From NCBI GenBank assembly GCA_018817425.1, contig JAHITX010000111.1, forward strand, positions 1-64,000: a stretch of DNA of 64,000 bases, given 5' to 3'. The notes below the pieces were generated by a model. That model had not been told where the DNA came from, made no database searches, and was given only the letters and a program-made list of their open reading frames with translations. A program made the translations under genes and the position numbers. Shown here piece by piece: positions 1-17,158 of the stretch (positions are counted from its first letter, which is position 1; the number at the start of each line of letters is the position of its first letter). The stretch is from Pseudomonadota bacterium (GTDB lineage: Bacteria; Desulfobacterota; Desulfobacteria; Desulfobacterales; RPRI01).

Positions 1-151
1 TCAAAGAGCTGATAACACCGGCCTTAAGATCCCCATAGTTAGTAAGAGCCTTACCGATAGTTACTTTTCCGTGCTTATCAATGATAACCGTGTCGGTAAA
101 GGTTCCCCCGGTATCTATACCAATAATATATTTTTCCTTTTCTTCTGCCAT
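1..151 (-). CDS. Hydantoinase-A / acetone-carboxylase-type protein, N-terminus only
   Basis: Only the first 50 residues lie in the window; the gene continues past base 1. The N-terminus MAEEKEKYIIGIDTGGTFTD carries the GIDTGGTFTD phosphate-binding motif of the hydantoinase/oxoprolinase A family (Hydant_A_N). That family includes ATP-dependent hydantoinases, 5-oxoprolinase and the large subunits of acetone and acetophenone carboxylases. Such proteins phosphorylate a carbonyl or amide and then hydrolyse or carboxylate it. The gene starts 14 bp after the stop of the preceding reductase/dehydratase subunit and is on the same strand, so it is probably the next gene of that operon. The fragment is too short to tell a carboxylase from a hydrolase. 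Confidence 0.8.
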   Translation of the reverse strand, partial: MAEEKEKYIIGIDTGGTFTDTVIIDKHGKVTIGKALTNYGDLKAGVISSL

Positions 152-165
152 ATTATTCTCCCCTT

Positions 166-1434
166 TTAATTTGATCTTTGTCCTACTCTATCAGATAATA
201 TCTCAATAAATTCCTTTAATTTTACCTGCATCTCTTCTACAGTAACAAAAGTCGGATCCATTATATCGCAATCTACTACCAGTGTCTGAATCCCCGCTTG
301 TTCGCTTAAAGCGTCTTTTAAAGATCTTATAATTCCTGACTGACGGCAGGCATTCTGAGCCCAGAACACTGCCCCATCAATCTTATAGTCCTTAACCACC
401 TGAATGGAATCATTTATAAAGTCTTTGGAAGAACCCATTATACATCTGGTCATAGGTGCATTAAAATATCTCTTTGCCAATGCTTCCAATGGGTCCGAAG
501 GATCCATCTCATCTTTTCCCCATTGAAAAACAATGCTTTCATTAACAAAAAGAGCTCCATAATCCTTTGCCAGCCAGTCCTGAAGCTTAAACGAAAACTG
601 CGGAGGCATAAAAAGGTCCAGCAGCCTTAGTTTTTCATTGGGAATCGCCCCAATACCTTTTTCGACCCTGGCTTTAACTTCATCTCTTACAATCGTAAAC
701 CATTTCACACCTTCCGGAGTCCCGGCGTTAATCCAATACATCCAATAAGACTGCCATGCCCTTCGGCTCTCCATCGGAGAGGGAACAGCTTTTCGCAACT
801 CAGCTATCTCTATGTAAAGGCGCGTCATTTCAGCAGTCATTGCCATATTTTCTTTCAGACGATCCCAGTCCATCTTCCGACCGGTTACCTTTTCTACAAA
901 TTCAATCAGCCGTCCGAATTCATTTGCCAGGTATTTAACCCCTCTTTCCGAATTTTCCCATGGAACATCAATGAAATAGTCAGGAACATCATACATATCT
1001 GCTGAGACCCCTCCACTTGAGGCAAAAGCATCGCAACCGGCTCCCATATGGACAATAAATTTCGGTTTTGGAAACCACTTTTCAACAAAATGCCCCAGCT
1101 GTATTCTGTGAGCCGAACATGTTTCTAAAGGAACTCCATATCCACGGCTTGTGTCCATGGCCTCTTTGTAATTGCGGGTACATACGGTCATTGCACCACT
1201 TGACGAAACTATAAGGACAGGAACCATGTCCATGGCATGAAATATTTCAGGCGGAACAAAAGTGCTGTGGGCGGCAATTTCTTTCCCCGACCTCATTGCC
1301 TCAGTAACTTTTTGGAAATATGAAGTATATAGCTCGTAATAAGCTTTTTCCCCGCTTGATTTTACTTTAGGCAACACATGGTCTGTTATATCTTCTAAAT
1401 TTTTAACCGCCTTAAACCATAAATCTTGGTTCAT
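166..1434 (-). CDS. BcrB/BzdO-like subunit of a benzoyl-CoA reductase / 2-hydroxyacyl-CoA dehydratase
   Basis: This 422-residue protein belongs to the HgdA/HgdB (2-hydroxyacyl-CoA dehydratase D-component) family. Enzymes of this type take single electrons, activated by ATP hydrolysis on a partner protein, and deliver them to an aromatic or 2-hydroxyacyl thioester. Conserved cysteines that could hold the active-site cluster are visible in ETCSAHR (near residue 106), GAGCDAF (near 135) and NACRQS (near 360). The length fits BcrB/BzdO (about 430-450 residues). I chose the ATG at 1434 because AAAGGG sits about 8 bp upstream and it follows the stop of the previous gene by 4 bp; a longer frame opens 30 bp earlier. 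Together with the next three genes it gives the four-subunit set of an Azoarcus (Bzd)-type class I reductase. A dehydratase cannot be excluded. Confidence 0.8.
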   Translation of the reverse strand: MNQDLWFKAVKNLEDITDHVLPKVKSSGEKAYYELYTSYFQKVTEAMRSGKEIAAHSTFVPPEIFHAMDMVPVLIVSSSGAMTVCTRNYKEAMDTSRGYGVPLETCSAHRIQLGHFVEKWFPKPKFIVHMGAGCDAFASSGGVSADMYDVPDYFIDVPWENSERGVKYLANEFGRLIEFVEKVTGRKMDWDRLKENMAMTAEMTRLYIEIAELRKAVPSPMESRRAWQSYWMYWINAGTPEGVKWFTIVRDEVKARVEKGIGAIPNEKLRLLDLFMPPQFSFKLQDWLAKDYGALFVNESIVFQWGKDEMDPSDPLEALAKRYFNAPMTRCIMGSSKDFINDSIQVVKDYKIDGAVFWAQNACRQSGIIRSLKDALSEQAGIQTLVVDCDIMDPTFVTVEEMQVKLKEFIEILSDRVGQRSN

Positions 1435-1438
1435 AGCA

Positions 1439-2596
1439 TTAACCCTTTCTTTTTTTTTCTTCAATCATCTCAATAAAAGCCTGCACCCGCGTCTTGATCT
1501 GGCCTGTGGCGGCCATGCCATATTCCAGATCCAATCTTAGCGAAGGGATGCCGCGGGTTTCAAATCTTTTGCTGAGACGAACCTCATCATAAATATGCGG
1601 AGCACAATAACGTACTACGCCGGTTATCATGCCATCAATATGGAAATCCTCGGCCATTTGTAGTATTCTGTCAAACCTCGGCTCGGATGGGGCCATACGA
1701 GGCGCAGGAAATTTATTTAAATAATGACGGGTAATAGCCAACAATGGATCAAGATTTTCATCTTCACTAACAAGATCCATAAAACTCATAGATCCGTTAA
1801 GAAGAGAATCCGCCACAACTATACTTCCAAGATCCTCAATCCCTTTTATATATTCCGAATTATGCAAAGCTGTTCCATTAATCATCAAACGCAGGCCGCC
1901 ATTCAATGCCCTGTCAGAAGTACTTGCCTCATCAATCAATTCTTTCAATAAAACATTAAAAGCTTTTCTGGGCATCATGGCAGATGCATTATAGATCTCA
2001 AAAACTTCCGCTCCCGTAATGGGAGGATTATCTTTTTTTCTCAAATCAAATAATTGATTAAAAAGCTTTCTGGTTTGATTATAGGTTTTGATGGCTTCCT
2101 GCAAAGCCTCATTCGTTATCTTTTTCTGAAAGGCACGCTCAATATTTGCTATAAATTCTTTTATATTTTCATAATAGAACTCTTCAGCCTCCGGAATATT
2201 TTTATGAGGAGTATGTAAAAAAAACATTGCCGGAATAGGCTTATATCTTTCCCAGACATCATACAACCGTCTGGTTCCATCACAATAGGGAGTTGTCATC
2301 ACTCCGTCCAGAAAATCGTAGCCTCCTTTAAGAGCTACTTCATATATGCTCCTCATATGAGAACAGGTATAAATATGAAGATATGAATTTGCATCATCAA
2401 GAGGAACTTCGCCGTAGGGTCCTCTTAACCAGACCGGCAATGCTCCGGCGGCAGATAATATCTCTTCAGGAATATCCCCGCCAAAAAAACCGATCACCTT
2501 CCCACCGCTTTTTTTCCACTCTTTTATCGGTGAAGCAAAAGGGAATTCTTTGTTAATCTCCTCAAATGGAGATAATGTTTTTAATAGTTGAGACAT
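1439..2596 (-). CDS. BcrC/BzdN-like subunit of a benzoyl-CoA reductase / 2-hydroxyacyl-CoA dehydratase
   Basis: The 385-residue product is the second HgdB-family subunit and matches BcrC/BzdN in length (about 386). Family cysteine motifs are visible: YTCSHMRSIYE (near 109), TTPYCDGTRR (near 133) and VRYCAPHIYDE (near 330), the last followed by RLDLEYG. In the family such cysteines ligate the catalytic iron-sulfur cluster of the heterodimer. It is translated just upstream of the 422-residue subunit with a 4-bp gap, so the two are surely co-expressed. A 160-bp space with a possible promoter precedes it. Substrate is unknown; the mutase and electron-transfer genes upstream argue for a dedicated acyl-CoA pathway rather than an amino-acid fermentation. 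Confidence 0.8.
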   Translation of the reverse strand: MSQLLKTLSPFEEINKEFPFASPIKEWKKSGGKVIGFFGGDIPEEILSAAGALPVWLRGPYGEVPLDDANSYLHIYTCSHMRSIYEVALKGGYDFLDGVMTTPYCDGTRRLYDVWERYKPIPAMFFLHTPHKNIPEAEEFYYENIKEFIANIERAFQKKITNEALQEAIKTYNQTRKLFNQLFDLRKKDNPPITGAEVFEIYNASAMMPRKAFNVLLKELIDEASTSDRALNGGLRLMINGTALHNSEYIKGIEDLGSIVVADSLLNGSMSFMDLVSEDENLDPLLAITRHYLNKFPAPRMAPSEPRFDRILQMAEDFHIDGMITGVVRYCAPHIYDEVRLSKRFETRGIPSLRLDLEYGMAATGQIKTRVQAFIEMIEEKKRKG

Positions 2597-2641
2597 AAAC
2601 TGTTCCTTTCTCTTATACTAAAGGGATAAACAGATTAAATT

Positions 2642-2669
2642 ATTAATCATTACCCCCGACATATGTCAA
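2642..2669 (-). promoter_or_regulatory. Possible internal sigma-70 promoter with palindrome
   Basis: On the minus strand TTGACA (2669-2664) is followed after 16 bp by ATTAAT (2647-2642). The perfect 10-bp palindrome GACATATGTC (2658-2667) overlaps the -35 box and could be an operator. It lies about 45 bp upstream of the reductase/dehydratase catalytic subunits, in the only sizeable gap within this part of the gene run. This is inferred from sequence only. Confidence 0.35.
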
Positions 2670-2756
2670 GATAAACGATTTTTTCAAAATTAACTAAAAG
2701 AACATCTGCATAAAGGCTTTAGATATATCTTTATGCAAATCTCTCCTATCTATAAA

Positions 2757-3545
2757 TCAGGCGGTTCGCCTACGCCTAAGCCTGTCAAAAGCAAAAAGAG
2801 CCGCCCCTATAGCTCCGATCAACTGCGGATCAGGAGCAATGAGAGGTTCAAGCCCTATCTTTTCCTTAATTTTTGCAACCACACCAGAATTTTTTGCAAC
2901 TCCTCCGGTAAGGCTGAAATCTTTCTCTACAGATACCTGGGCCAGCATGCTTGCGGCTACTTTGGCAATAGAATCATGCAAACCGGCAACAATATCGTTT
3001 TTGGGCACTCCATCCCTAAGCATGTTTAAGGCTTCGGTCTTCGCAAAGATAACACAAATCGTGCTGAATGAAATATTTTGCCGTGAAGAGAACGAAAGCT
3101 CACCTAGCTTGTCTACAGGAACCTCCAAGATATCGGCTATTACCTCAAGAAAACGGCCTGTTCCGCCAGCGCATTTGCTGTTTAATATAAAATTGGTCAG
3201 ACGTCCATCGCCATCACATTTAATGGCCTTTGAATCCTGGCCTCCGATATCCATGATTGTTCTTACCGTAGGGAAATACCAGTGTACCCCACGCGCATGG
3301 CATGATATCTCGGATACATGTTTCTCACCTCCGACAAACTGGAACCGGCCATAACCGGTCGGCATAATACTTTCCAGATCGGAAAGTTTCATACCGGCCA
3401 GTTTCAGTGCTTCATTTAATACTTTTATGCCAACATCAGGACCTTTTAAAATTGTTTCGCCTATGTGTGAGGAGATAATTTTATCTCCTTCCATAATAAC
3501 GGCTTTAGCGGTCCTTGAACCTATATCAATTCCTGCTACCGGCAT
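2757..3545 (-). CDS. BadF/HgdC-type ATPase, reductase/dehydratase activator subunit
   Basis: This 262-residue protein is a BadF/BadG/BcrA/BcrD family ATPase (ASKHA fold). It is expected to use ATP hydrolysis to push low-potential electrons from ferredoxin into the catalytic heterodimer. The family motifs are complete: AGIDIGSRTAK (residues 4-14), TGYGR, DIGGQDSKAI (near 95), SKCAGGTGRF (near 124) and STICVIFAKTE (near 163). The cysteines in the last two are the ones that hold the dimer-bridging [4Fe-4S] cluster in the family. Its start overlaps the end of a second BadF ATPase by 20 bp. Two unlike short ATPases of this size resemble BzdP/BzdQ, whereas dehydratases usually have a single homodimeric activator. 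That is the main argument for a reductase-type complex. Confidence 0.85.
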   Translation of the reverse strand: MPVAGIDIGSRTAKAVIMEGDKIISSHIGETILKGPDVGIKVLNEALKLAGMKLSDLESIMPTGYGRFQFVGGEKHVSEISCHARGVHWYFPTVRTIMDIGGQDSKAIKCDGDGRLTNFILNSKCAGGTGRFLEVIADILEVPVDKLGELSFSSRQNISFSTICVIFAKTEALNMLRDGVPKNDIVAGLHDSIAKVAASMLAQVSVEKDFSLTGGVAKNSGVVAKIKEKIGLEPLIAPDPQLIGAIGAALFAFDRLRRRRTA

Positions 3546-4383
3546 AGGCCTCTTCCTTACGACTAAAAATATGGTTTCGCCCTAAAACGGCAGCACCCAG
3601 CGCAACAACGAATTTGGGTTCTTGTGTTACATATACCTCGGCATTGATATGCTTATTAAAACTTCTTACAAAAGCCTGATTCAAAGAGACTCCACCACAT
3701 AAAAGAACAGGGGGAATCACCCTAACCTTTCCGGTTAAACCGACAACACGTGAGGCAAGTGATTCATGCAGCCCCGCCAGAATCTCAGACCTGGGAGGTG
3801 GCGGATCTTCAAAAGCATATGAAAGAATTTCCTGTTCGGCAAAAATGGTACAGGTACTTGCGATATCGATCCCTTTTTCCGCTTTCATAGCTTCTGCGGC
3901 CATTTCCTCCAAAGATAAACCCATAGCTTTTGCTATTGCCTCTAAAAATACTCCCCCGCCTGCAGCACATTTGTCGTTAACGGTAAAATCTTTTATCTGG
4001 CTTTGTTTATCCAGAGTAACGATTGTTGTATTTTCCGCTCCGACATCAATAATCGTTTTTACATCAGGAAAAAGCTCAAGGCCACCCTTAAACAAACACA
4101 TGTATAGGCCTTTTTTCATATCGGCAAACGGCAAGTCTCCGCCTGACCGGCTGGTGGCTACAACAAGATCTATATCCTCTCTTGATAATGAATTTGCTTC
4201 AAGCGCCTTTTCTATAGCTTTGGCAGCAACAACTTCCGACTTATCAGGCAAACTAAGAGAGTCACGATAAATGACGCCTTCATCGTTCAACAGAACCAAT
4301 TTTGTAGCAATACTTCCTATGTCAATGCCTATGATTTTCAATGTACCCAATTCATTAAAGACCTGCCTGAGGAGGTCCCGCAA
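3526..4383 (-). CDS. Second, divergent BadF-type ATPase subunit
   Basis: The 285-residue product is a second BadF-family ATPase, probably forming a heterodimer with its downstream neighbour. It retains IGIDIGSIATK (near 18-28), NDKCAAGGG and STCTIFAEQE with the two cluster cysteines. The usual DIGGQDxK motif reads DVGAENT, and the GYGR segment reads SRSGGD, so its nucleotide site is probably modified. The frame overlaps the upstream flavoprotein gene by 29 bp; a TTG 14 codons further in, directly before KIIGIDIGS, would remove the overlap and is a possible true start. It could be a structural partner rather than an active ATPase. Confidence 0.8.
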   Translation of the reverse strand: MRDLLRQVFNELGTLKIIGIDIGSIATKLVLLNDEGVIYRDSLSLPDKSEVVAAKAIEKALEANSLSREDIDLVVATSRSGGDLPFADMKKGLYMCLFKGGLELFPDVKTIIDVGAENTTIVTLDKQSQIKDFTVNDKCAAGGGVFLEAIAKAMGLSLEEMAAEAMKAEKGIDIASTCTIFAEQEILSYAFEDPPPPRSEILAGLHESLASRVVGLTGKVRVIPPVLLCGGVSLNQAFVRSFNKHINAEVYVTQEPKFVVALGAAVLGRNHIFSRKEEAYAGSRN

Positions 4384-5437
4384 TAAGAGTTTGCTTGCTT
4401 GCGCAAAGGCCTACATGTTTCCTGATGTCTTCTGACCCATTATAGTAAATATCGAAGGCAGCTCCTTCTCCTTTTATAGACCTTGCTATAGCGCTGCCTG
4501 CCCTGTATCCGGAATCTATGGCAACACTGATTCCTTCGCCATTTAAATATATGAGGCCCGCAGCTTCACCGGCAAGCAAGATCCTGCCTCCACCAAAGCA
4601 GAAATCGCCTCTTAAAAACATATCGTTCATAGCTGTGCCTTCACTTCTGACTTTATCGGCAAGCTTCATTTTGAATCTGGCGGCAAGGAAATCTTCAAAC
4701 TCCTTCATAAGACGTTTATAACCGCCTTTCATTTTAAAAGCCCCGACAACAAGAGTAAGAACATCGTCTTTCTTATGTATGCTTGCCATACAATCACCGA
4801 TATTGCCTAAAAAAACATACCAGGGCCCTTCTTTAAATTCGCCCGGATCTAAACATTTGTAATATACCTGATATACAACAAGCTCAGTCAGTCTTTCTTC
4901 AAAGGAAGGATCGAATGCTCTGCGCACAAGAGAATCACCCCCGTCTGCACCTACAAGATAAGAACATTCTATCCGGGTTTTTGAACCGCCCTGCATTACA
5001 TCCAGCTTAAGCTTATCTTTATCAGCGGTAAATCCGGAGAAACTGCATCTTTCTTTTATAACCGCCCCGGATTGTTTAAGCATCCAGTGGTCAAACTTAC
5101 CTCGCCATATATTTAGGAACTCTGGACTGAATTCCTTCCCGTCCTTGGGAATTTCCCACTCATACACAAAATTTCCGTCTTTTTCAGTCCAGGCAATAAT
5201 ATCATTCCGGTTTATAATTTTTGGATTGCAATATACACTTTCCGGAGGAAGTCCACCAAAATATTTTTCAAGCAAATCCCTTGTCTGTCCCATAAGGATA
5301 CCAGAGCAGCATTTATGCCTAGGGAGCTTTTTTCTTTCCAGAACCAGAGATTTAACACCATTATCGGATAAAGCCTTAGCGCATGCGGCACCAGCAGGCC
5401 CACCGCCTGCAATTACTACCTGATAATATTTTTCCAT
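4355..5437 (-). CDS. FAD-dependent oxidoreductase of the geranylgeranyl reductase family
   Basis: This 360-residue flavoprotein begins with a Rossmann FAD motif, VVIAGGGPAGAACAKAL (residues 7-23), followed by LERKKLPRHKCCSG, a signature of the geranylgeranyl reductase/digeranylgeranylglycerophospholipid reductase group. It has a YLVGADGGDSLVRR motif near 165 and the C-terminal FAD segment GRILLAGEAAG. Family members reduce isolated double bonds or act as aromatic monooxygenase-like flavoproteins. An oxygen-dependent hydroxylase is unlikely here because every neighbour is of anaerobic type. It lies between the ATPase genes and the U32-family pair, so it may supply or take electrons in the same pathway. 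The substrate is unknown. Confidence 0.75.
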   Translation of the reverse strand: MEKYYQVVIAGGGPAGAACAKALSDNGVKSLVLERKKLPRHKCCSGILMGQTRDLLEKYFGGLPPESVYCNPKIINRNDIIAWTEKDGNFVYEWEIPKDGKEFSPEFLNIWRGKFDHWMLKQSGAVIKERCSFSGFTADKDKLKLDVMQGGSKTRIECSYLVGADGGDSLVRRAFDPSFEERLTELVVYQVYYKCLDPGEFKEGPWYVFLGNIGDCMASIHKKDDVLTLVVGAFKMKGGYKRLMKEFEDFLAARFKMKLADKVRSEGTAMNDMFLRGDFCFGGGRILLAGEAAGLIYLNGEGISVAIDSGYRAGSAIARSIKGEGAAFDIYYNGSEDIRKHVGLCASKQTLIAGPPQAGL

Positions 5438-5492: not shown

Positions 5493-6314
5493 TTATACAG
5501 GCACATCCGGCTCAATAACCATACGGTTTATATGGTTATTTTCCAACACATCAGCAGAAGGTATATTTTCGTTTTTAAAAAACATGGTATTGCCTTTGCT
5601 TATCAATGGAACAGGCATTACCGAATGAACATGCTGAAATGTATATTTCTGGCATTCTTTCTTGCAGGGGAAAATTCCGATCTCATCCTCTTTTCCGGCA
5701 ATATCACAGGAATTTGCCAGACAAAGGCGTGTAGTAGTTATAAAGGCATACGGAACATACAAAGATGTATTAATAATACTATCACCAAGATTTAAATCCA
5801 ATCCCTGCAAAAGATTATCAAGCTCTATTCTCTTTATTTTATGATCAATCAGAAAATTTTGGTAAAGAGGACTGTCTAGTGAACAACCGCGAAAATAATT
5901 GAGAGTACTCTCCGGTAATGAATTCATAACCTCTTTTAACCTCGGGCCGCGTTTCATCTTGTTCAAAAGTCTTCCCATTACCGGTTCAAAGCTTTTATAC
6001 TTTTCATTAAGTATATTTAATACTCCCCAGTCATTAAAAACAACCTCACTATCCGGTTTAGTTTTTTCAATAACTTTCAAAAGGGGTTTTAATTTCTTTA
6101 TCCCTTCGTTTGTTACATAAGGAGTAAGAAAAGTAAAATCTATGTTTTTCTCCGAAACAAAATCAAGAACCTTCTCAAGCTTATTGACCGTGGGAAGCAG
6201 CCGCTGGCAAAACTCACAGCCAAAATAAATTCTCGAAAAACTTCCGTCGTAATGTTTCAGGTTATTTACTTTTGTAATATATAATGCCCGATCAATCGCT
6301 TTGCTGTCATCCAC
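5493..6314 (-). CDS. UbiV-like U32 family protein
   Basis: This 273-residue protein fits the UbiV branch of the U32 family. UbiV with UbiU forms an iron-sulfur complex that hydroxylates ubiquinone precursors without oxygen. The N-terminal segment IYFGCEFCQR (residues 29-38) lines up with the region of UbiV that has its first cluster cysteine. A downstream group, C-x4-C-x13-C-x3-C, ends in PCKKECQKY and corresponds to the remaining cluster ligands, with one extra cysteine. It lies 13 bp downstream of a UbiU-like gene. If the cell uses menaquinone (see the futalosine genes at 17.9-22.2 kb), a ubiquinone role is unlikely; oxygen-independent hydroxylation of a pathway intermediate is my inference. 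No UbiT-like lipid carrier is visible. Confidence 0.65.
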   Translation of the reverse strand: MDDSKAIDRALYITKVNNLKHYDGSFSRIYFGCEFCQRLLPTVNKLEKVLDFVSEKNIDFTFLTPYVTNEGIKKLKPLLKVIEKTKPDSEVVFNDWGVLNILNEKYKSFEPVMGRLLNKMKRGPRLKEVMNSLPESTLNYFRGCSLDSPLYQNFLIDHKIKRIELDNLLQGLDLNLGDSIINTSLYVPYAFITTTRLCLANSCDIAGKEDEIGIFPCKKECQKYTFQHVHSVMPVPLISKGNTMFFKNENIPSADVLENNHINRMVIEPDVPV

Positions 6315-6327
6315 TGAGAATATTCCT

Positions 6328-7329
6328 CTATGCTACTCTGACTTCAGGATAGTAACACATAGCAGTCCTGCACGGAAGTCTATAAACATATTTATAAAAT
6401 GCCCGTGTCTGTTCTATGTACTGCTGTCTTGAAATAGTTTTATCTTTTAAAAGTGTAAGCAACATCCTTATAAACTTAACATCATTAATTTTGCGTTTTA
6501 AATCATTACCCCGTCCGACTATTTTTACGCAATCAACCCCCATTTCAACAAAATCATAAAGGGCGCACGCTCCACAAGGAACATCATCCATATGAAGTCT
6601 GGTCCATACCTGCTGTCTTTTAAAAGCAATCTCAGCCTTATTACTATGCTCAATTGCTGATTTTGATTTTCTATTAGACAACTTGTCCGAATATAAACTT
6701 AAGCTATACGGGAGCATGCAGGAATTTTTGAATGAACTTTCCAATGACTGAACATGATCAAAAGTACAAAGGCCATCCACATTTGGACAACGGGAATTAA
6801 ATATGAAAACACACGTTTCTACGCCGGTTACATTTTTTACTATATCTCTTATTTCGTCGATGGTCAGATGTCTTTCAAAAATTACTTTATCAATCCCCAA
6901 TTTCTGCAAAAACTTAACAGTCTCAGAGTTAAAAATGGAAACTCCGGTGCTCACATTAATAGATGTGTCAAGACCGGCATCTTTTATAGCAAGGATAAGA
7001 TTCAGATCTGCAACTATAAATGAATCAACACCAGCATCAATAGCTTTTTTAATATAATCAAGCAGCATTGGATATTGATCCTGGGTATAAAAATGTTCAT
7101 TTATAGCAAGGTTCACCAATGCATTATATGAATGGGCAATAGAAACGGCTTCTTCTAAAGCATTGAAAGACTGAAGATTGCATATGGTTGCAGGCCGCCT
7201 ATTAATTGCTGCTATAGTATATCTGCTCAGCCATTTATCCCATATAACACCGCAATAAAGCTCGTTAGCCCCTGCTTTTATAACATCTTCTACATCATCC
7301 ACTTTATCTATAGGCGCCAGGATATTCAT
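6328..7329 (-). CDS. UbiU-like U32 family protein
   Basis: This 333-residue protein starts MNILAPIDKVDDVEDVIKAG, a typical opening of the U32 (collagenase-like) barrel. It carries cysteines in the order C-x6-C-x15-C-x47-C (SRCPNVDGLC, KNSC, DDVPC), close to the C-x6-C-x16-C-x38-C ligands of the UbiU [4Fe-4S] cluster as I remember them. The name peptidase U32 is misleading: characterised relatives are RNA or quinone hydroxylases. The gene overlaps the MeaB-type GTPase by 4 bp (ATGA), so translation is coupled to the B12 mutase module. It is expected to pair with the UbiV-like product next to it. Function in hydroxylation is inferred from family and context. Confidence 0.7.
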   Translation of the reverse strand: MNILAPIDKVDDVEDVIKAGANELYCGVIWDKWLSRYTIAAINRRPATICNLQSFNALEEAVSIAHSYNALVNLAINEHFYTQDQYPMLLDYIKKAIDAGVDSFIVADLNLILAIKDAGLDTSINVSTGVSIFNSETVKFLQKLGIDKVIFERHLTIDEIRDIVKNVTGVETCVFIFNSRCPNVDGLCTFDHVQSLESSFKNSCMLPYSLSLYSDKLSNRKSKSAIEHSNKAEIAFKRQQVWTRLHMDDVPCGACALYDFVEMGVDCVKIVGRGNDLKRKINDVKFIRMLLTLLKDKTISRQQYIEQTRAFYKYVYRLPCRTAMCYYPEVRVA

Positions 7330-8321
7330 TTGAGATTTTCCTGTTGTTTCAGATAAGACAAAAAGGTTTCCAATAGCACTTCTGCCTGTTGGCTTGGATT
7401 TTTATTATCTATTGAAACTTCTTTTATTCCTTGATCAAACTCTTTAGAATCGCTGGTAAATTTATCAAGATAACGCATAATTTTGTCTTCCATAATTTTA
7501 CAGATCTCGATCCGTATTCTTTTTTCTCTTCTTTGCTTAAGCTGACCGTTTTCTATCGAATAGTCTCTATACACCTCAAGCTCTTTCCAAAGCTCTTCTA
7601 TCCCTTTTTGTTGTACAGCTATTGTTTTAACCAGGACAGGCTCTCGTTCTCCATTCTTAGTGGCCCAATGCAGAGCGACTTTAAGAGAGGACGCTAACAT
7701 ATCGGCACCTGCCTGATCTGCTTTATTGAGTACAACGATATCTCCGATTTCCATTGTTCCGGCTTTCATTGCCTGGATTTCATCTCCCATTCCAGGACTT
7801 AGAACTACTACAACCGAATCAGCAAGTTTTGTAACTTCTATTTCAGCCTGACCGGCACCGACAGTCTCAACAAATATATAATCTTTCCCAAAGGCATCAA
7901 GGACATTGGCCACCCGATAGGTGGCCTCCGACAGTCCTCCCATTTCGCCTCTGGAGCCAAGGCTTCGTATAAAGACATTTTGCTTTGTGCCTAAATCTTC
8001 CATCATCCTTATACGATCGCCCAAAAGTGCTCCTCCGGTGAATGGGGAAGAAGGATCAATAGCTATAATAGCTACTTTTTTCCCACTTTGGTCTAATAAT
8101 CTTGCCAGTTTTCCCACTACAGTGCTTTTACCTGCTCCGGGTGCACCGGTAAAACCAATAACGTAGGCCTTTCCGCTATGAGGATAAACTTGCTTCATGA
8201 TCTCCGGAACTGAAGAATCATTTGCTTCAACTAATGTTATCAGTCTGGCTGTTGCTCTTACAGAGCCATTCAACATATCTCTTACCAGATCAGCGCTACT
8301 TTGTTTGGTTTTCAACGACAT
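7326..8321 (-). CDS. MeaB/ArgK-type GTPase, acyl-CoA mutase chaperone
   Basis: The 331-residue product is a G3E-family P-loop GTPase of the MeaB/ArgK/MMAA type. It protects and reloads adenosylcobalamin-dependent acyl-CoA mutases. Visible motifs are Walker A GAPGAGKST (near residue 57), DPSSPFTGGALLGDRIRM (near 91), ETVGAGQ (near 152) and NKAD (near 199). The glutamate-valine-glycine switch segment is intact. It sits 37 bp after the small B12-binding subunit and is followed without a gap by the UbiU-like gene. The location ties it to the divergent mutase encoded just upstream. Confidence 0.92.
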   Translation of the reverse strand: MSLKTKQSSADLVRDMLNGSVRATARLITLVEANDSSVPEIMKQVYPHSGKAYVIGFTGAPGAGKSTVVGKLARLLDQSGKKVAIIAIDPSSPFTGGALLGDRIRMMEDLGTKQNVFIRSLGSRGEMGGLSEATYRVANVLDAFGKDYIFVETVGAGQAEIEVTKLADSVVVVLSPGMGDEIQAMKAGTMEIGDIVVLNKADQAGADMLASSLKVALHWATKNGEREPVLVKTIAVQQKGIEELWKELEVYRDYSIENGQLKQRREKRIRIEICKIMEDKIMRYLDKFTSDSKEFDQGIKEVSIDNKNPSQQAEVLLETFLSYLKQQENLK

Positions 8322-10482: not shown

Positions 10483-10655
10483 ATCTTAACCTCTCTTTTC
10501 ACAAGGCTTAACTCCATGGGGTAAATCTTTCCAATAAGAATTATCTCACGGGTATTTCAGTAACCATCTAAATTCATTAAGAGATAGAAGCACTTTTATG
10601 TAAAGAAGGAAGAGAACACTTTTATGGTTCCTCCTTATACATATATAAAAGGAAC

Positions 10656-10704
10656 AAGGGTTCCTGCGAAACGGTACAATCGGCTTCTTGTCACAGGAAC
10701 CCTT
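10656..10704 (-). terminator. Hairpin in the 10483-10796 gap, possible terminator or processing site
   Basis: A perfect 11-bp inverted repeat, AAGGGTTCCTG / CAGGAACCCTT, with a 27-nt loop lies between the FAD oxidoreductase stop and the mutase start. On the minus strand a short T-rich stretch follows. Just to its left is a weaker palindrome (GGAAGAGAAC...GTTCCTCC). It could weaken transcription from the oxidoreductase block into the mutase block, or be a REP-like element. Nothing else is seen in this 314-bp gap. Confidence 0.35.
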
Positions 10705-10796
10705 TTAAAATCCGGCACAAAACTTTATCCGGAACTTACGGTTTCAATACTATATTATATGAATTCTATCTCTGAATAATATTTACACTCAAATAA

Positions 10797-12374
10797 TTAT
10801 TCAGGCTCGCAATATCCATGAGGATCTGATGCAGTATTCGGATCAAAAACCCTCTTTATCTTTTTCATGTACTTATGGAAATCATGAGCATGCGGGCTTG
10901 TCATCGAATGCGCCATTTCACCTGCATTTTCAAAGAACCCCAGCCCTACTCCTTCTGTAATAGCTGCGCCAACACTATCAAAGCCTAATTTAATAGCAGC
11001 TTTGGTTGACTCAATGTCAAAAGGATCATACTGATACAGCGGTTCATGATGTGATCCGATAGTAGCTTGTTCATACAGGTTGGAACCCCATACATTGTGA
11101 ACTTCCTGCAGGAACTGACCACCGTCTACATAAGGCTTCATTAATTTATCGCCAAGGTAACTTCCAAAACAGGCGTTGTCGATTGTATCATCACCTGTAG
11201 CTGCACAGAAGAACGAACCTGTTCCGCGGAAAATACCTTTGATAATTTCTCCGCCCCACAGATGCCACCAATAATTGGAGCCCTTAGCATGAGGTACTTT
11301 TTCGAGATCTTCATCTATCCAGCCGCCTGTTTTTTCCAGAATCGCTTTTAAGCATTTTTCCTGGTATGCTATTTCTCCGTCGCTGTATCCACCAAGTATT
11401 ATACCAAATGCAAAGGCATTTTTCTGCAAAATACCTTTCTGCCACAGTTCATAGAATTCCTGGTTGGATTCGGTCATCATAGCACCGTGCCATGCTGCAA
11501 CAGCTCTGTCACCGGAATATGTCATTTCGGCTTCGGTAATCATATACTGGGCTTCATGCATATCATCCCATGATTTCCATGAACAAATATATGAACTCAT
11601 TCTCTCAGGAATGATAGGATCATAGCATGGAGATCTTCCTGTACTCTCGTGTTTGTCAGGACCTGGCCAAGGATAAAGTTTAATCGAAATCTTGGTGAAT
11701 GTTCCAAGAGCACCGAAGGAACCCATATAGCCTCTCATGATGCCTCTGATACCGGGTCCGGGGCCATCTGCGCTAAACCATTCGCCGCTTTGTCCCAATG
11801 ATCCTAATTTTAACAATTCACCGGTAGACAATACCCATTCCACGCCCAGAATGTTACGAGAGCTGTGGCTTGTATTAATCGAACTCGGCCCCATACCGCA
11901 GCATGCAGCATGACTGGCAAGACTTGATGTTGTGGGTCCTGGTCCAATAACATGCGGACGAAGTCCCTTTTTAATACACTCAACATGAAGCTGACCTACT
12001 GCAACATAAGGTTCAATAACTGCAATCATGTTCTTTTCATCGATATCTATGATACGATTCATTCTTCTCATATCAAGAGCTATTGTGTCTGGGCTTCCTG
12101 CCAAAGATCCCGGAAACCAGCCGGTACTAAAAGCATGAGATTTTATCCCATATTTGTTACATACTCTCTGAATAGCCTGGACCTCTTCGGTACATCCTGG
12201 AAGCAACGCCGCTACCGGCCATTCAGGCATAAAGTATTCTTCAGCCGGAGTCTGCATATATGGCTGTACCATAAACACGTATGCATATCCAGCCAAATTA
12301 GCCGGCTCTTCTGATATGTTTTCCGGACCTACTATATCTTCGAGTGCCCTGTAAGCTTCTCTTGTTAAAGCCAT
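10797..12374 (-). CDS. FAD-binding oxidoreductase (vanillyl-alcohol-oxidase / GlcD type)
   Basis: The 525-residue product has an N-terminal FAD_binding_4 domain (about residues 50-235: PEWPVAALLPGCTEEVQAI, FSTGWFPGSLAG, AVIEPYVAVGQL, GYMGSFGALGTFTKISIKL). A C-terminal substrate-binding half ends with the family tail KRVFDPNTASDPHGYC. Relatives oxidise alcohols, 2-hydroxyacids or phenols at a covalent or tight FAD. A clear ribosome site AGGAGG precedes the ATG. It follows an iron-sulfur protein and a second flavoprotein by 17 bp and probably hands electrons through them to Etf. It has many tryptophans and aromatics in the C-terminal half, so an aromatic or hydrophobic substrate is plausible. 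The exact reaction cannot be read from the sequence. Confidence 0.8.
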   Translation of the reverse strand: MALTREAYRALEDIVGPENISEEPANLAGYAYVFMVQPYMQTPAEEYFMPEWPVAALLPGCTEEVQAIQRVCNKYGIKSHAFSTGWFPGSLAGSPDTIALDMRRMNRIIDIDEKNMIAVIEPYVAVGQLHVECIKKGLRPHVIGPGPTTSSLASHAACCGMGPSSINTSHSSRNILGVEWVLSTGELLKLGSLGQSGEWFSADGPGPGIRGIMRGYMGSFGALGTFTKISIKLYPWPGPDKHESTGRSPCYDPIIPERMSSYICSWKSWDDMHEAQYMITEAEMTYSGDRAVAAWHGAMMTESNQEFYELWQKGILQKNAFAFGIILGGYSDGEIAYQEKCLKAILEKTGGWIDEDLEKVPHAKGSNYWWHLWGGEIIKGIFRGTGSFFCAATGDDTIDNACFGSYLGDKLMKPYVDGGQFLQEVHNVWGSNLYEQATIGSHHEPLYQYDPFDIESTKAAIKLGFDSVGAAITEGVGLGFFENAGEMAHSMTSPHAHDFHKYMKKIKRVFDPNTASDPHGYCEPE

Positions 12375-12391
12375 CTCAAACCTCCTTATTA

Positions 12392-13666
12392 TTAAATTGC
12401 CTGCTCGACAAGCTCTATAATATCCAATATCTTGAGTGCATCACCCGAATCGTTGACAGCGTCAGAGAAATTACGTTCGCACCAGCCACATGCAGTTACC
12501 ATTGCTTCTGCACCTGTTGTTTTTGCCTCGGTAACTCTCTCTTTGGCAACCCAGAGTGAATAGTCAGGATCAGAATCCATACATCCTCCACCAGCACCGC
12601 AGCAGAAACTGTATTCTTCAATTCTTTTCATCTCAGTAAGTTTTACACCCGGAATGCTTCTAAGAATATCTCTTGGAGCATCGTAAATACCGTATTTTCC
12701 ACGACGGAATACTTTCGGGGGATCATGCAAACAAAGCTGGCCCATTACCTTCTTTTCTACACCTTTCCAGGGTATCCAATCTTCTCCCAGTCTGCCAAGG
12801 TGGCATGGGTCATGATAGGTAACTCTCAAAGGAACATTCTTGGAAAATTTGAGCTTTCCTTCCTTGATAAGCTGAGCTATATATTCAGTAATATGAAGGA
12901 CTTCAACATCAAGCTTTCTATCGATTTTATGGTAGAGCACTTTAAAAGCATGGTAACAATCGGAACAGGAAACCACTATTTTCTTGATTCCTGCCGCCTT
13001 GAACATAGCCGCATTATTTTCGGAAAAACTTTCGATCTCGCCCTGATATCCCATTTCATAGGAACGGCCTCCGCAACATGCTTCTTCCGTACCGAAGATA
13101 CCTACATCAACACCGGCTTTTTGCAGAACGGAAATAGCGGTTTTTGCAACCTTATGCAGACTTTCATCAAATGAAATCCTGCAACCGGCAAAGTAAAGGA
13201 CCTCTCCTTTTTCCTTGGTAAGATCTTTTATCTTAAGGCCTTTAGCCCAATTGCCTCTGTCGGCCTTTTTGGCCTGCATCATGTTGTCTTCTGCTTTCAA
13301 ACCTTCCATCACGGCCATCAGCTCCGGAACGAGCTGACCATCTTCAACACATTGAGCCCTTAATGCAAGCAACATTTCCTGAGGCTCCATATCACGGTTG
13401 GTTTTGCATGTTATATCACAGGCGCCACACATCTGGCAGTGATATATTATATCCAACCATCCATCTGTATATTCTATTTTGTCGGTTACATATGCAAGTG
13501 CACTATGATATCTTCCGGCACCGGAATAAGCATGAAAGTTATGTTTTGAAATTGAGGGGCACACCTGAGCAAACTCTTGACCTGGACCTTTCTGCCAGGG
13601 AACCCACTTACAATTGGAACACCTTTCACAGCGAACCATATCAGCTTTCCAATCTATTAATGCCAT
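12392..13666 (-). CDS. Iron-sulfur oxidoreductase with CCG domains (HdrD/GlcF-like)
   Basis: This 424-residue protein has an N-terminal ferredoxin part with CERCSNCKWVP...CP (near residues 12-37) and CQMCGACDITC (near 75-85), then two CCG domains (FGTEEACCGGRSYEMG and EYSFCCGAGGGCMDSD). These domains bind noncubane or [4Fe-4S] clusters in heterodisulfide reductase subunits and glycolate oxidase GlcF. I place the start at the ATG before ALIDWKAD because AAGGAGG lies 9 bp upstream; a GTG three codons earlier falls inside that ribosome site. It is flanked by two FAD oxidoreductases and followed upstream by EtfAB. It most likely links substrate oxidation to Etf or the quinone pool. Confidence 0.85.
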   Translation of the reverse strand: MALIDWKADMVRCERCSNCKWVPWQKGPGQEFAQVCPSISKHNFHAYSGAGRYHSALAYVTDKIEYTDGWLDIIYHCQMCGACDITCKTNRDMEPQEMLLALRAQCVEDGQLVPELMAVMEGLKAEDNMMQAKKADRGNWAKGLKIKDLTKEKGEVLYFAGCRISFDESLHKVAKTAISVLQKAGVDVGIFGTEEACCGGRSYEMGYQGEIESFSENNAAMFKAAGIKKIVVSCSDCYHAFKVLYHKIDRKLDVEVLHITEYIAQLIKEGKLKFSKNVPLRVTYHDPCHLGRLGEDWIPWKGVEKKVMGQLCLHDPPKVFRRGKYGIYDAPRDILRSIPGVKLTEMKRIEEYSFCCGAGGGCMDSDPDYSLWVAKERVTEAKTTGAEAMVTACGWCERNFSDAVNDSGDALKILDIIELVEQAI

Positions 13667-13690
13667 TTTTAACACCTCCTTAAAAGCCTT

Positions 13691-15154
13691 CTAGAAACAC
13701 AGTTTACCAGGGTTCATAATTTTATTGGGGTCAAATATTGTTTTTACTTTTCTCAGGAAAGAGGCAGTTTCGCCATCTCTTCTGTAAACCATGTCTGACC
13801 AGGAGCCATATGGTCTGGAAAAGAATGCTCCCATATTAGCCAAAGCCATGCTATTATTAACAAGCCCCTTAACCTTATCCATCTCCGCCTTATTATTGCT
13901 GTCACAATTTAAGTTGAATTCCACATGACAGCTGGTACCATTAACGGTCGGTTGTATATAAACACCTATATCATTCGGAGAAAAACCCTTGCTTTCAGCC
14001 TGTGCGCACATAGCTTTTACAAAGTCAGGTGTATGGTCTAATGTAGTCAGGAAGAATATATCCCGACAGGCTCCTTTGGCTTTATTTTTCCAATAAATCT
14101 CACCGGAAGGTTTAGCCAATGCGGCAGCGACATCATCAGCCGACAATCCACATGGAAGTGCTTCCAATGGGGTAAGGCCATTTGCCTGTGCGGCATTTTT
14201 AATATCTGTAACCTGATAGGCCACTTTATCCTCAGGCATTACGCCACGACCCTCTGCACTGATAAAAAGAACATAGGGCGGTAACGCATCTTTCAGAGTT
14301 GCCACTTCGCTGCTGTCTTTAGCCATTATACAAGCAAGATTGTGGTTGTTTAAAATAAGGATATCATCGCCAAGAAGGACTTTATGCATTTTATAAACAA
14401 GCCCTATAAGGTCTTCTAATTTCTGGGCCGGAACAAAAAATGACTTCTTAAGTACTGGTTTTACTCTGCATTTTATTGATAACCAGGTCACAATACCCAT
14501 AGTTCCCTGTGAGCCTTGTACAACTCTCTGGAAGTCTGTCTGAGCAGGTCCCATAGGTCTTATCTGCGCCCTTTTGTTTTCCCACTGCTGAGCCAGTGTA
14601 CCCGGTCCTGCAGCCGAACCCGTCATAAACAGATGGCCATCGCCAAAAATAACTTCCATACAAAGCAGCGGATCTTGCGGATCCCAGTGATGTCTAGGCA
14701 TTGTAATGGGTTCTCTTTCGAGATAACTGCCGACAACTGATTTCGTGCTGCGTGGAACAAGCGGCATATGAGCAGCCAAGCCTTCCTTATCCAGTGCATC
14801 AACAAGCTCACCAAATGTTACGCCGGGTTCAATCATTGCAACACGGTTTCTTCGGTCAACTCTTATGATCTTTTTCATTCCGCTAAGATCAACAACAACT
14901 GCCCCACCAGTACTGGGAACTGTGTCGCCCCGATAGTGAGGTGCTCCTGAACTCACCGGAACAAGCGGTGTACCTGTTTCGTTAGCCCACTTAATCAATT
15001 CCTGTACCTCAGTATTCTTAGTGGGTTTAACCACACAAGAAGGCCGTACCGGGATAACAAAACTCTCATCCCCGGCATAAGCCTCCAGGGTTTTCTGATC
15101 ATCAAAAACATTGTCTTTACCAATGATCTTCGTTAAATCATCTTTTTGAGCCAT
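13691..15154 (-). CDS. GlcD-type FAD-linked oxidase
   Basis: The 487-residue product is a second FAD_binding_4 flavoprotein. Recognisable parts are VRPSCVVKPTKNTEVQELI (36-54), PVSSGAPHYRGDT, RVAMIEPGVTFGELVDAL (about 102-119), GSQGTMGIVTWLSIKC and the C-terminal FDPNKIMNPGKLCF of FAD-oxidase_C proteins. The family includes glycolate and D-lactate dehydrogenases. It stands 65 bp after EtfB and 24 bp before the iron-sulfur gene. This order, Etf plus GlcD-type plus CCG protein, is known from Etf-linked 2-hydroxyacid dehydrogenases such as LctBCD. Two different FAD subunits in one set suggests either two substrates or one catalytic and one electron-transfer subunit. Confidence 0.82.
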   Translation of the reverse strand: MAQKDDLTKIIGKDNVFDDQKTLEAYAGDESFVIPVRPSCVVKPTKNTEVQELIKWANETGTPLVPVSSGAPHYRGDTVPSTGGAVVVDLSGMKKIIRVDRRNRVAMIEPGVTFGELVDALDKEGLAAHMPLVPRSTKSVVGSYLEREPITMPRHHWDPQDPLLCMEVIFGDGHLFMTGSAAGPGTLAQQWENKRAQIRPMGPAQTDFQRVVQGSQGTMGIVTWLSIKCRVKPVLKKSFFVPAQKLEDLIGLVYKMHKVLLGDDILILNNHNLACIMAKDSSEVATLKDALPPYVLFISAEGRGVMPEDKVAYQVTDIKNAAQANGLTPLEALPCGLSADDVAAALAKPSGEIYWKNKAKGACRDIFFLTTLDHTPDFVKAMCAQAESKGFSPNDIGVYIQPTVNGTSCHVEFNLNCDSNNKAEMDKVKGLVNNSMALANMGAFFSRPYGSWSDMVYRRDGETASFLRKVKTIFDPNKIMNPGKLCF

Positions 15155-15219
15155 AACTTATCTCCTCTTTAATTAATAATGACTTCACAACATTAACCAA
15201 CTCAAAAAACTAAAACCTC

Positions 15220-15999
15220 TCACCCCCCTTTTAAAATTGAAGCTAAATTTTCACCTTTTTCTTCGGGAGAATCGCCTTCTATAAATTGACAATCCCTTCC
15301 CATATCCGGTGGTGGCAACAGAGCCGCCATATCTATTTGTACCAATTTGTCAGAATCAACTCCGACATCATCAGCACTCCACACAGTTATCGGTTGTTTG
15401 TAGGCAGCTATTCTCATTTTGGCAATTGGATACCTCAATTCACCAACTTCACTGCTTACCGTTAACAAAGCAGGTAAGTTAGACTTAACCAATTCGTAGG
15501 CTCCAGGAAGTATTTTCTCTATAACCACCTTACCACCATCAATCTTTACACTGCGAACTAAATTAACAGTAGGAATTCCCAATATTTCGCCAAGTATCAG
15601 CCCGGTTTGTCCTAAATCCCAATCGCCTCCCTGCCTCCCGGTCAGAATAAGATCGTACTCTCCTAATTTTTCAATTGCCTTTGATAGTACATAAGCGATA
15701 GAATTACTATCAAGGTTTTTAAACTGGGGATCATCCACAACTACTAGATTATCGGCACCAACTGCCAATGATCTTCTTAATACCGCCTGGGAAATCTTTG
15801 ACCCAACGCTTACAACAACAACTTCAGCTCCGTTTTCATCCTTAATACGAAGAGCAGCTTCCAAAGCATTCTCATCATAAGGGTTGATTACCGGTGCCAC
15901 ACCTTTCGTACTAATTGCTTTTGCCTCTGAATCTACCTGTACTGCTGTGTAAGGAGCTTCGGGATCAGGAACCTGTTTTGCACATACTATTATTTTCAT
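15220..15999 (-). CDS. etfB: Electron transfer flavoprotein beta subunit
   Basis: This 259-residue protein is EtfB. It starts MKIIVCAKQVPDPEAP, has NPYDENALEAALRIKDE (near 42) and the AMP-binding region DLILTGRQGGDWDLGQTG (near 118), and ends with the usual PPPDMGRDCQFIEG region. With EtfA it passes electrons from flavin dehydrogenases to a quinone reductase or between dehydrogenases. The start is set by GGAGGGAG 6 bp upstream and overlaps the etfA stop by 4 bp (ATGA). Whether it bifurcates electrons cannot be judged from motifs alone. Confidence 0.93.
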   Translation of the reverse strand: MKIIVCAKQVPDPEAPYTAVQVDSEAKAISTKGVAPVINPYDENALEAALRIKDENGAEVVVVSVGSKISQAVLRRSLAVGADNLVVVDDPQFKNLDSNSIAYVLSKAIEKLGEYDLILTGRQGGDWDLGQTGLILGEILGIPTVNLVRSVKIDGGKVVIEKILPGAYELVKSNLPALLTVSSEVGELRYPIAKMRIAAYKQPITVWSADDVGVDSDKLVQIDMAALLPPPDMGRDCQFIEGDSPEEKGENLASILKGG

Positions 16000-16994
16000 G
16001 ATAACTCCCTCCACTTCTTGTTAAATGCCGGAAGAACCTTATTCAAATCGCCGATAATTCCATAGTTGGCTACATTAAAAACGCTTGCTTTTTTATCTTT
16101 ATTTATAGCCACAATTTTCTTGGATCTCATCATGCCGACCAAATGCTGTGTAGCTCCGGAAATACCTATTGCCACATATAACTCCGGTGAAACTTTCTCA
16201 CCGGTTAATCCAACCTGACGGCTTGAAGACACCCACCCCAGATCAACTGCCGGTCTGCTGCCGGCAATTTCAACAACACTACCTGAAGATTGCCTAATCA
16301 GATCTGCCATTTCCTCAAGTATCTTAAAACCTTCAGGCCCGCCTACTCCCCGGCCTCCGGATATAATTATATCCGCCTTATCCAGCGAAACGGAATCTTC
16401 TTTAACAATTTCTACAGATTCAACTTTAGCTGAAGATGCATCTATATCCGGCGCCACATCGATAATCTCACTTTTGGTTGATACTTTCTCCGCAGGAACC
16501 ACAACTTTTTTCCTTACCGTGGCAAAATGCGGCTCTTCTTTATATTTAAAGACTGCAACGGCATTTCCGCCATATACCGGTTTTGTGCAAACCAAAAGCC
16601 CTTCGGCCTTATCGGTTTCCAGTTCGGTACAATCTGTGACAAGTCTGACCTTTAGCCTGAAAGCCAGTCTCGGAGCAACTTCCATACCTATATTGGTATG
16701 ACTCATAAGCAAAACTTTGGGGTTAATCTGCGCACTTAATTTTTCCAGAATACCGACCCACAAGTCAGGCATAAATTTTTCAAGTAAAGGACTTTCTATT
16801 TTGTATACCTTATTTGCCCCAAATGAGGCAGCTTCATCAGCTATTCCGGAAAGGTTGCTTCCAATAATTACCAATGATAGCTCAAGGCCTAAATCATCCG
16901 CAATTTTCCTTCCAGCACCCAATAATTCAAGCGTAGAAGAGCTGATGCCCCCTTCTCCTATTTCTCCGCATACTAACACCGGACGGGTTGACAT
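15996..16994 (-). CDS. etfA: Electron transfer flavoprotein alpha subunit
   Basis: The 332-residue EtfA is shown by its C-terminal FAD domain: SGGRGVGGPEGF (near 210), SRPAVDLGW (near 245), RQVGLTGEKVSPELYVAIGISGATQHL and the tail VFNVANYGIIGD. It is the first gene of the long minus-strand run and is preceded by AGGAGG. A -24/-12 sigma-54 promoter lies about 150 bp upstream. No ferredoxin domain is fused to it, unlike some EtfA forms of anaerobes. It serves the adjacent FAD/FeS oxidoreductases or an acyl-CoA dehydrogenase outside the window. Confidence 0.94.
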   Translation of the reverse strand: MSTRPVLVCGEIGEGGISSSTLELLGAGRKIADDLGLELSLVIIGSNLSGIADEAASFGANKVYKIESPLLEKFMPDLWVGILEKLSAQINPKVLLMSHTNIGMEVAPRLAFRLKVRLVTDCTELETDKAEGLLVCTKPVYGGNAVAVFKYKEEPHFATVRKKVVVPAEKVSTKSEIIDVAPDIDASSAKVESVEIVKEDSVSLDKADIIISGGRGVGGPEGFKILEEMADLIRQSSGSVVEIAGSRPAVDLGWVSSSRQVGLTGEKVSPELYVAIGISGATQHLVGMMRSKKIVAINKDKKASVFNVANYGIIGDLNKVLPAFNKKWRELS

Positions 16995-17142
16995 AAATAC
17001 AAACCTCCTTTTTTCCCTCCGCCGGTTTTACCCGACAGCAACGGTTTATTCTTAACAAACATTTTTTTTGCCATACAGGAACAAAAATTCATATCAACTA
17101 AAACTAAGCAAAATACTAATCTTAATATAATTATAAACAATA

Positions 17143-17158
17143 TGCTTAAATCATGCCA
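17143..17158 (-). promoter_or_regulatory. Sigma-54 (-24/-12) promoter of the etf-mutase-reductase operon
   Basis: On the minus strand the sequence is TGGCATGATTTAAGCA, with GG and GC separated by exactly 10 bp as sigma-54 requires. The -24 box matches 6 of 7 positions of TGGCACG. It lies about 150 bp upstream of etfA. The core ATTTAAGC is identical to the promoter found at 49175-49189. The assignment rests on sequence only. Confidence 0.65.

Follow-up and report, generated by a model that had tools for sequence, protein, structure and literature searches.

We describe a block of fifteen genes on the minus strand, spanning 16994 to 166, in the window, a stretch of 64,000 nucleotides (positions 1-64000) that forms the first part of a 137,685-base contig in a 5.1-Mb Desulfobacterota genome (G000). 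The block joined a UbiU/UbiV-like pair of U32 proteins, a B12 mutase-like enzyme and a two-ATPase reductase to a set of flavoproteins and electron-transfer proteins. Judged from its genes and their conservation, it may be an accessory block by which a strict anaerobe of the Desulfobacterota breaks down a compound that can be activated with CoA and is probably cyclic or aromatic, with O2-independent hydroxylation of the ring. We regard this reading as evenly poised between right and wrong, and whether the substrate is aromatic, alicyclic or branched is a guess. The block is a real, undescribed combination of known kinds of parts, with at least one unrecognised family, the protein at 5493-6314 (P6), and one uncharacterised mutase clade. 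A literature search gave no description of the gene set, nor of U32 pairs in catabolic or quinohemoprotein amine dehydrogenase (QHNDH) operons, with subscription papers and preprints outside its coverage. This agreed with a first-pass annotation of the window, which had known of no described pathway with this set.

Domains were called with Pfam and NCBIfam and judged against the NCBIfam cut-offs. The genus comparison covered ten genomes, in which the block-bearing ones were the window genome, G006 (locus L010) and G009 (locus L009). The packed arrangement with two sizeable gaps noted in the first-pass annotation was borne out. Most of the genes overlapped or lay 12-65 bp apart, and the two larger gaps were one of 314 bp between FAD4b and the mutase and one of 160 bp between BadF1 and HgdC; FAD4a and FAD4b denote the first and second FAD_binding_4 proteins and FAD3 the FAD_binding_3 flavoprotein. 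The annotated gene list was incomplete, since it had overlooked the start of HyuA, and with it the ATP-dependent carboxylase, the amidohydrolase and the CoA ligase that seem to round off the set. Because the contig ends inside HyuA, the sixteenth gene (positions 150..1, by translation), the block is truncated there and comprises at least fifteen genes. The features were as follows.

17143..17158, minus strand: promoter-like element with a sigma-54-like GG-N10-GC (TGGCATGATTTAAGCA in the window).
15996..16994, minus strand: EtfA-like protein (PF01012, PF00766; ortholog in L010).
15220..16014, minus strand: EtfB-like protein (PF01012).
13691..15154, minus strand: FAD4a, GlcD-like flavoprotein (PF01565, PF02913).
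12392..13675, minus strand: CCG / 4Fe-4S dicluster protein, TfrB-like (PF02754, PF13183; NF004898).
10797..12374, minus strand: FAD4b, second FAD_binding_4 dehydrogenase, GlcD-like (PF01565; module partners in other families).
10632..10706, minus strand: conserved terminator-like hairpin inside the 314-bp gap (stem AAGGGUUCCUG/CAGGAACCCUU).
8764..10482, minus strand: B12 mutase-like large subunit with a changed active site (PF01642, 440 bits; closest PDB entry 4r3u).
8359..8751, minus strand: B12-binding small subunit (PF02310; DAHEVS at DxHxxG).
7326..8321, minus strand: MeaB GTPase chaperone (TIGR00750, 316.8 bits, above cut-off).
6328..7329, minus strand: UbiU-like U32 protein (PF01136, Peptidase_U32; NF047963, 70.5 bits against a cut-off of 440; Cys181, 188, 204, 252/255).
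5493..6314, minus strand: UbiV-like protein P6 (Cys36, 198, 217, 221 invariant in 16 homologs; UbiV profile E 2.7e-5).
4355..5437, minus strand: FAD3, geranylgeranyl-reductase-like FAD_binding_3 flavoprotein (PF01494; PRK11445/GG-red-SF under cut-off).
3526..4383, minus strand: BadF-type ATPase 2 (PF01869; TIGR00241, 193 bits).
2757..3545, minus strand: BadF-type ATPase 1 (PF01869; TIGR00241, 243 bits; BzdQ 206.6 against a cut-off of 380).
2630..2669, minus strand: conserved promoter-like element inside the 160-bp gap (TTGACA ... TTAATA, all three genomes).
1439..2596, minus strand: HgdC/BzdN-like subunit (PF06050, HGD-D; double_cubane 211.6 against a cut-off of 350).
166..1464, minus strand: HgdB/BzdO-like subunit (PF06050, HGD-D; HadB 85.6 and BzdO 84.6, both under cut-offs).
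1..150, minus strand: HyuA (hydantoinase/ketone carboxylase alpha), first 50 residues by translation, with a probable continuation on contig C120 of G000.

The gene order was identical in the block-bearing congeners. L010 carried all 15 genes, and L009 carried 13, the first two being lost to a contig end. Block proteins were 77-95% identical among these congeners, and the ratio of nonsynonymous to synonymous substitution (dN/dS) was 0.07-0.18 for each of the 15 genes, at dS 0.3-1.3. The shared order and the low dN/dS indicated that the block did not arise by chance. The full set was present in 3 of the 10 genomes, with no counterpart found in the seven other congeners, and the flanking menaquinone genes occurred without the block in all seven congeners having the region, with other DNA upstream where this was read. 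The shared order, purifying selection and absence from the other congeners together point to an accessory unit that is maintained by selection. The Etf-GlcD-CCG-GlcD module, the U32 pair and the mutase were each found elsewhere without the others. The conserved co-occurrence that the first-pass annotation had proposed as a check was therefore seen as a full set in the same order in three species, but within one genus only, and its modules also occur apart.

The U32 pair carried the proposal of O2-independent hydroxylation. The UbiU-like protein was about 27% identical to E. coli UbiU over 199 residues. Its C181, C188 and C204 aligned with UbiU C169, C176 and C193, and C252 or C255 may be the fourth ligand, giving CX6CX15C plus C252/C255 beside the published UbiU motif CX6CX16CX38C (PMC6747719, the source of all Fe-S ligand positions used here). 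Its score of 70.5 bits fell far under the curated cut-off of 440, so it was not filed as UbiU proper. UbiV ligates its cluster through C39, C180, C193 and C197, in the motif CXnCX12CX3C (PMC6747719). In P6, C36, C217 and C221 aligned with UbiV C39, C193 and C197, while C198 stood in for C180 (CXnCX18CX3C), and these four cysteines were invariant across 16 homologs. Even with the threshold relaxed to E = 10, neither Pfam nor NCBIfam gave P6 a meaningful match, and a single UbiV sequence gave no significant match to the P6 profile (P 0.06). A 16-sequence P6 profile matched an eight-sequence UbiV profile with E 2.7e-5 and a probability of 74%, which supports homology to UbiV without proving it. 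AlphaFold2 on P6 and three orthologs gave a mean predicted local distance difference test score of 42.8, and the model was not used for fold search. With the cysteine ligands kept and this profile match, the UbiU/UbiV-like pair named in the first-pass annotation stood. The pair was tightly packed in the block (gaps of -4 and 13 bp). Sampling of the phylum covered 395 genomes, and P6 relatives turned up in 37 of them. Solitary P6 paralogs without a UbiU partner were also seen (L095, L097, L099, L104), and those at L095, L097 and L104 lay near DAHP synthase and an rdgB-like gene, named by eye.

The surroundings of distant relatives gave the best hint that this family hydroxylates aromatic rings. 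In 389 genomes of the same order, only distant P6 homologs were found besides the three block-bearing genomes, and all seven whose surroundings were read lay among QHNDH genes. In these loci the alpha and gamma subunits scored above their cut-offs and QhpD and QhpE just under theirs, and a UbiU-like partner stood in the same stretch in five of the seven. The loci (L147-L153, for example L149 5424-15963 and L150 2700-13180) belong to Desulfobacterota of the same order. In Paracoccus, the tryptophan destined for the cysteine tryptophylquinone (CTQ) cofactor is dihydroxylated by the flavin monooxygenase QhpG using O2 (PMC7876137). No QhpG-like flavoprotein reading frame was seen in the QHNDH stretches; one CrtI-like protein was present in L151. 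Because the pair sits in QHNDH operons that lack QhpG, where a hydroxylase for the tryptophan ring is needed, it apparently replaces the O2-dependent QhpG, possibly as an O2-independent tryptophan dihydroxylase for CTQ. A broader idea is that this UbiU/UbiV-like branch is a general O2-independent aromatic-ring hydroxylase of anaerobes. Recruitment would then have gone two ways: to catabolism in the block, beside the two-ATPase reductase and a B12 mutase with a new specificity, and to CTQ biogenesis in QHNDH operons that lack QhpG. We hold this idea tentatively and consider it somewhat less likely than not.

The reductase had the composition of a class I benzoyl-CoA reductase, with two BadF-type ATPases and two HGD-D subunits. 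No subunit reached the BzdNOPQ/BcrABCD cut-offs, the best scores being 206.6 against 380 (BzdQ) and 133.4 against 453.8 (BzdN). As a positive control, the Bzd benzoyl-CoA reductase of the same genome scored above the cut-offs at contig C138 (L038 5426-9972). This over-cut-off set elsewhere in the genome, together with the low scores in the block, suggested that the block reductase probably acts on a substrate other than that of benzoyl-CoA reductase. It also indicated a host equipped for aromatic acids. The BadF/HgdB reductase of the first-pass annotation was thus real as a two-ATPase, two-HGD-D set, but it fell under every benzoyl-CoA-reductase cut-off. A second related two-ATPase set was present in the window genome at C104 (L039 9885-14050).

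Beyond the contig end, the block would continue on C120 of the window genome with HyuA, HyuB-gamma, an amidohydrolase-2 and a PaaK-like CoA ligase, a join drawn from best-match pairing. HyuAB was present in two near-identical genomic copies, and for this reason the assemblies of all three species break there. The second copy (L035 1482-3114, L036 16839-19914) had a HyuB about 95% identical and lay behind an AccC-like biotin-carboxylase gene. Against the AccC-linked HyuA of G006, the copy on C60 showed 93.5% identity and that on C120 89.0%; since the C60 copy was nearer, C109 was joined to C60 and the window contig to C120. C60 was rejected as the continuation of the block on this ground and because C120 has the amidohydrolase and ligase matching the order in G006. 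The order HyuB, amidohydrolase-2 and PaaK-like ligase was seen on C120 and likewise on contig C68 of G006, and in G009 HMG-CoA-synthase-like and thiolase-like genes (named by eye) intervened between the HyuB continuation genes. The amidohydrolase was shared by all three block-bearing congeners with 96% identity and found in none of the seven block-free ones. HyuB residues 651-727 formed an acetone carboxylase gamma domain (PF08882) with two CxxC pairs. A gamma subunit with four conserved cysteines marks ketone carboxylases and is absent from hydantoinases (PMC5214803), so HyuB carries the gamma mark of the ketone carboxylases (Acx/Apc), an assignment that depends on the probable join to C120. 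The top family score of HyuA was to caprolactamase alpha (538.8 bits).

Under the catabolic reading, the parts would act as follows, in no fixed order. The PaaK-like ligase would form the CoA thioester. The UbiU/UbiV-like pair would hydroxylate the ring independently of O2, the oxygen coming from an organic donor such as prephenate by analogy with ubiquinone synthesis. EtfAB, the CCG Fe-S protein and the two GlcD-like flavoproteins would oxidise a hydroxyl group, the electrons passing in the direction of menaquinone. Together with MeaB, the B12 mutase-like enzyme would act on a substrate larger than those of known acyl-CoA mutases and rearrange its carbon skeleton. The two-ATPase, two-HGD-D reductase may either carry out a low-potential reduction driven by ATP or dehydrate a 2-hydroxyacyl-CoA, in the manner of class I benzoyl-CoA reductase and HadBC. 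The HyuAB-gamma enzyme would carboxylate a ketone intermediate in an ATP-dependent manner.

Several observations weighed against this reading, and the mutase gave some of them. The enzyme had a full MM_CoA_mutase domain, a B12-binding partner and MeaB, and its closest solved structure was 2-hydroxyisobutyryl-CoA mutase (HCM, 4r3u). In methylmalonyl-CoA mutase (MCM), Tyr89, Arg207 and His244 are active-site residues. All three orthologs carried Gly, Trp and Asn at these positions; the large subunit had a local insertion, and the small subunit read DAHEVS in place of DxHxxG. In the MCM of the same genome, a positive control, all three residues were kept. The mutase activity is therefore not assured, and it may be altered or lost. 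The B12 mutase of the first-pass annotation was confirmed with its fold kept, but residues that define known acyl-CoA mutases are gone, so rearrangement of a skeleton can only be presumed. It likely acts on a bulkier substrate than known acyl-CoA mutases, as judged from these residues. A 59% identical mutase in G061 had the same Gly/Trp/Asn, and more distant proteins carried other substitutions. The distant altered-type mutases lay among CoA ligases, acyl-CoA dehydrogenases, MaoC hydratases, HgdBC and thiolase-like genes, and this gene company is catabolic. In the wider His244-less clade (L056-L063, L125, L126), the neighbours were HgdBC, MaoC, acyl-CoA dehydrogenase, amidohydrolase-2, HMG-CoA-synthase-like and thiolase-like genes. 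The G061 mutase (L041 35-3005) adjoined a DUF1329 gene, and DUF1329 genes were also present in the window.

Gene content and transcription signals gave the other opposing points. Transporter and regulator genes were both absent within the block. Pairs with 41-49% identity in other Desulfobacterota families adjoined lipB-lipA and dnaJ (gene names by eye), with no mutase or BadF, and this setting suggested other roles. The hairpin between FAD4b and the mutase was present in all three genomes, its stem being followed by a U-rich stretch, with folding z-scores against shuffles of -4.65, -5.42 and -3.61; an Rfam search of 1-18000 gave no match, this hairpin included. The element before HgdC was likewise present in all three genomes (TTGACA...GGGGTAATGATTAA). 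Together they may separate the expression of sub-blocks and weaken the case for a single simple transcript. The single operon claimed in the first-pass annotation was weakened by this hairpin and this internal element; the genes are just as likely to form three transcription units, or one under internal control, as a single simple operon. For the claimed sigma-54 link the signals were mixed. The element TTGGCATGATTTRAGCATATTG (17159-17138) was conserved in G006, and GG-N10-GC was kept in two genomes. Its -12 part was off consensus (TAAGC/TGAGC for TTGC), however, and a sigma-70 reading of the same site matched at 11/12 in the window only. A one-mismatch sigma-54 scan missed the element at 17158-17143, and a strict scan gave no excess.

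These observations left room for other explanations. The U32 pair could be a housekeeping hydroxylase of RNA, quinone or another cell component that sits by chance in a catabolic block, whose pathway would then do without O2-independent hydroxylation. The substrates of characterised U32 oxidases are ubiquinone precursors and RNA (PMC11574389), the block is bordered by menaquinone genes, and both the lipB-lipA and dnaJ pairs and the solitary paralogs of other families fit such a role. We nevertheless consider it rather unlikely, because the close pair, including the UbiV-like gene, was confined in the genus to the three block-bearing genomes, was tightly packed and was under the same constraint as its neighbours. 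It is also conceivable, if quite improbable, that the block is a row of independent units (the Etf/GlcD module, mutase-U32-BadF and HgdBC-HyuAB) without a shared pathway. The conserved hairpin between units 1 and 2, the conserved promoter-like element before unit 3 and the occurrence of the Etf/GlcD module and mutase-like genes alone elsewhere agree with this. However, BadF1 and BadF2 lie in unit 2 and their HgdC and HgdB partners in unit 3, and all units were gained or absent together in the genus.

Two further explanations assigned the block to known pathways. The anaerobic indoleacetate pathway of Aromatoleum comprises the CoA ligase IaaB, the phenylsuccinyl-CoA/benzylmalonyl-CoA mutase IaaGH and predicted HyuAB-family 2-oxoindoleacetyl-CoA lactamases (PMC8360864, PMC5214803). 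The block shares a ligase, a HyuAB-family enzyme and a mutase with it and could be a variant of indoleacetate (auxin) or lactam degradation, with HyuAB as an ATP-dependent lactamase, the mutase acting on an arylsuccinyl-CoA and the U32 pair serving as the ring-oxidising enzyme. The caprolactamase score of HyuA, the enlarged mutase pocket (Gly at the Tyr89 position), which would suit an aryl group, and the QHNDH pairs, which hint at indole as a possible target, pointed the same way. We find this unlikely, however, since the four-cysteine gamma domain of HyuB is a ketone carboxylase mark and not a hydantoinase one (PMC5214803), and the lactamase reading of HyuAB was demoted for this reason. Moreover, IaaL-type CoA-transferase and IaaF-type dehydrogenase were not seen in the block, and Trp and Asn stood at the positions of Arg207 and His244, the residues that a substrate with a carboxyl group would call for. 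Synthesis or modification of an isoprenoid quinone or another isoprenoid, through UbiU/V-like hydroxylation and a geranylgeranyl-reductase-like flavoprotein, seemed very improbable. FAD3 resembles geranylgeranyl reductase, and divergent menaquinone genes (UbiD/MqnL, MqnP, MqnE/C-like, MqnA/D-like) lie beside the block at 17913-22191. But these genes stood without the block in all seven congeners having the region, which demoted this explanation, and the reductase, MeaB/mutase, Etf module, carboxylase and CoA ligase are foreign to quinone synthesis.

In the rest of the window, positions 34867-63978 contained RND transporter genes, two sigma-54 activators, two similar sets of DUF1302, DUF1329, APH-like and other proteins, and flavin/GMC oxidoreductases at the end. 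This part looks like one for the uptake and catabolism of hydrophobic compounds.

To our knowledge, ubiquinone precursors and RNA are the only compounds that U32 proteins are known to hydroxylate independently of O2. A catabolic role, if true, would extend U32 hydroxylation to the breakdown of organic matter without O2 and offer a route other than molybdenum hydroxylases. B12 chemistry on undescribed substrates is suggested by the mutase clade in which the conserved active-site histidine is missing. The QHNDH pairs bear on the formation of a tryptophylquinone cofactor in strict anaerobes, as the known route to it requires O2.

The block was compared with known systems part by part. Like UbiU/UbiV of E. 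coli ubiquinone synthesis, it has an adjacent U32 pair with aligned cysteine ligands and a UbiV profile match, but it differs in a CGAC motif at the fourth UbiU ligand, the lack of UbiT and catabolic surroundings with no ubiquinone genes in view. The mutase shares separate large and B12-binding subunits and MeaB with MCM, HCM and phenylsuccinyl-CoA mutase IaaGH. It differs from them in the Gly/Trp/Asn positions, the local insertion and DAHEVS, and belongs to an uncharacterised clade outside the characterised subfamilies. The two-ATPase reductase resembles class I benzoyl-CoA reductase (BzdNOPQ/BcrCBAD) and HadBC in that two BadF-type ATPases and two HGD-D subunits are encoded together. Its subunits score under the equivalog cut-offs with no adjoining ferredoxin gene, and it belongs to no characterised subfamily. 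The two GlcD-like flavoproteins, CCG protein and EtfAB match the Etf-linked GlcD/CCG dehydrogenase module, whose 49-57% related counterparts in other families neighbour TRAP transporters or PEP-synthase-like genes and not a mutase. HyuA and HyuB, with a gamma domain bearing two cysteine pairs and a downstream CoA ligase, recall the acetophenone/acetone carboxylase and hydantoinase family and, in this arrangement, the apc operon. In contrast to those carboxylases, the gamma domain of the block is fused to beta, alpha-prime and epsilon subunits are absent, and HyuA is nearest to caprolactamase alpha.

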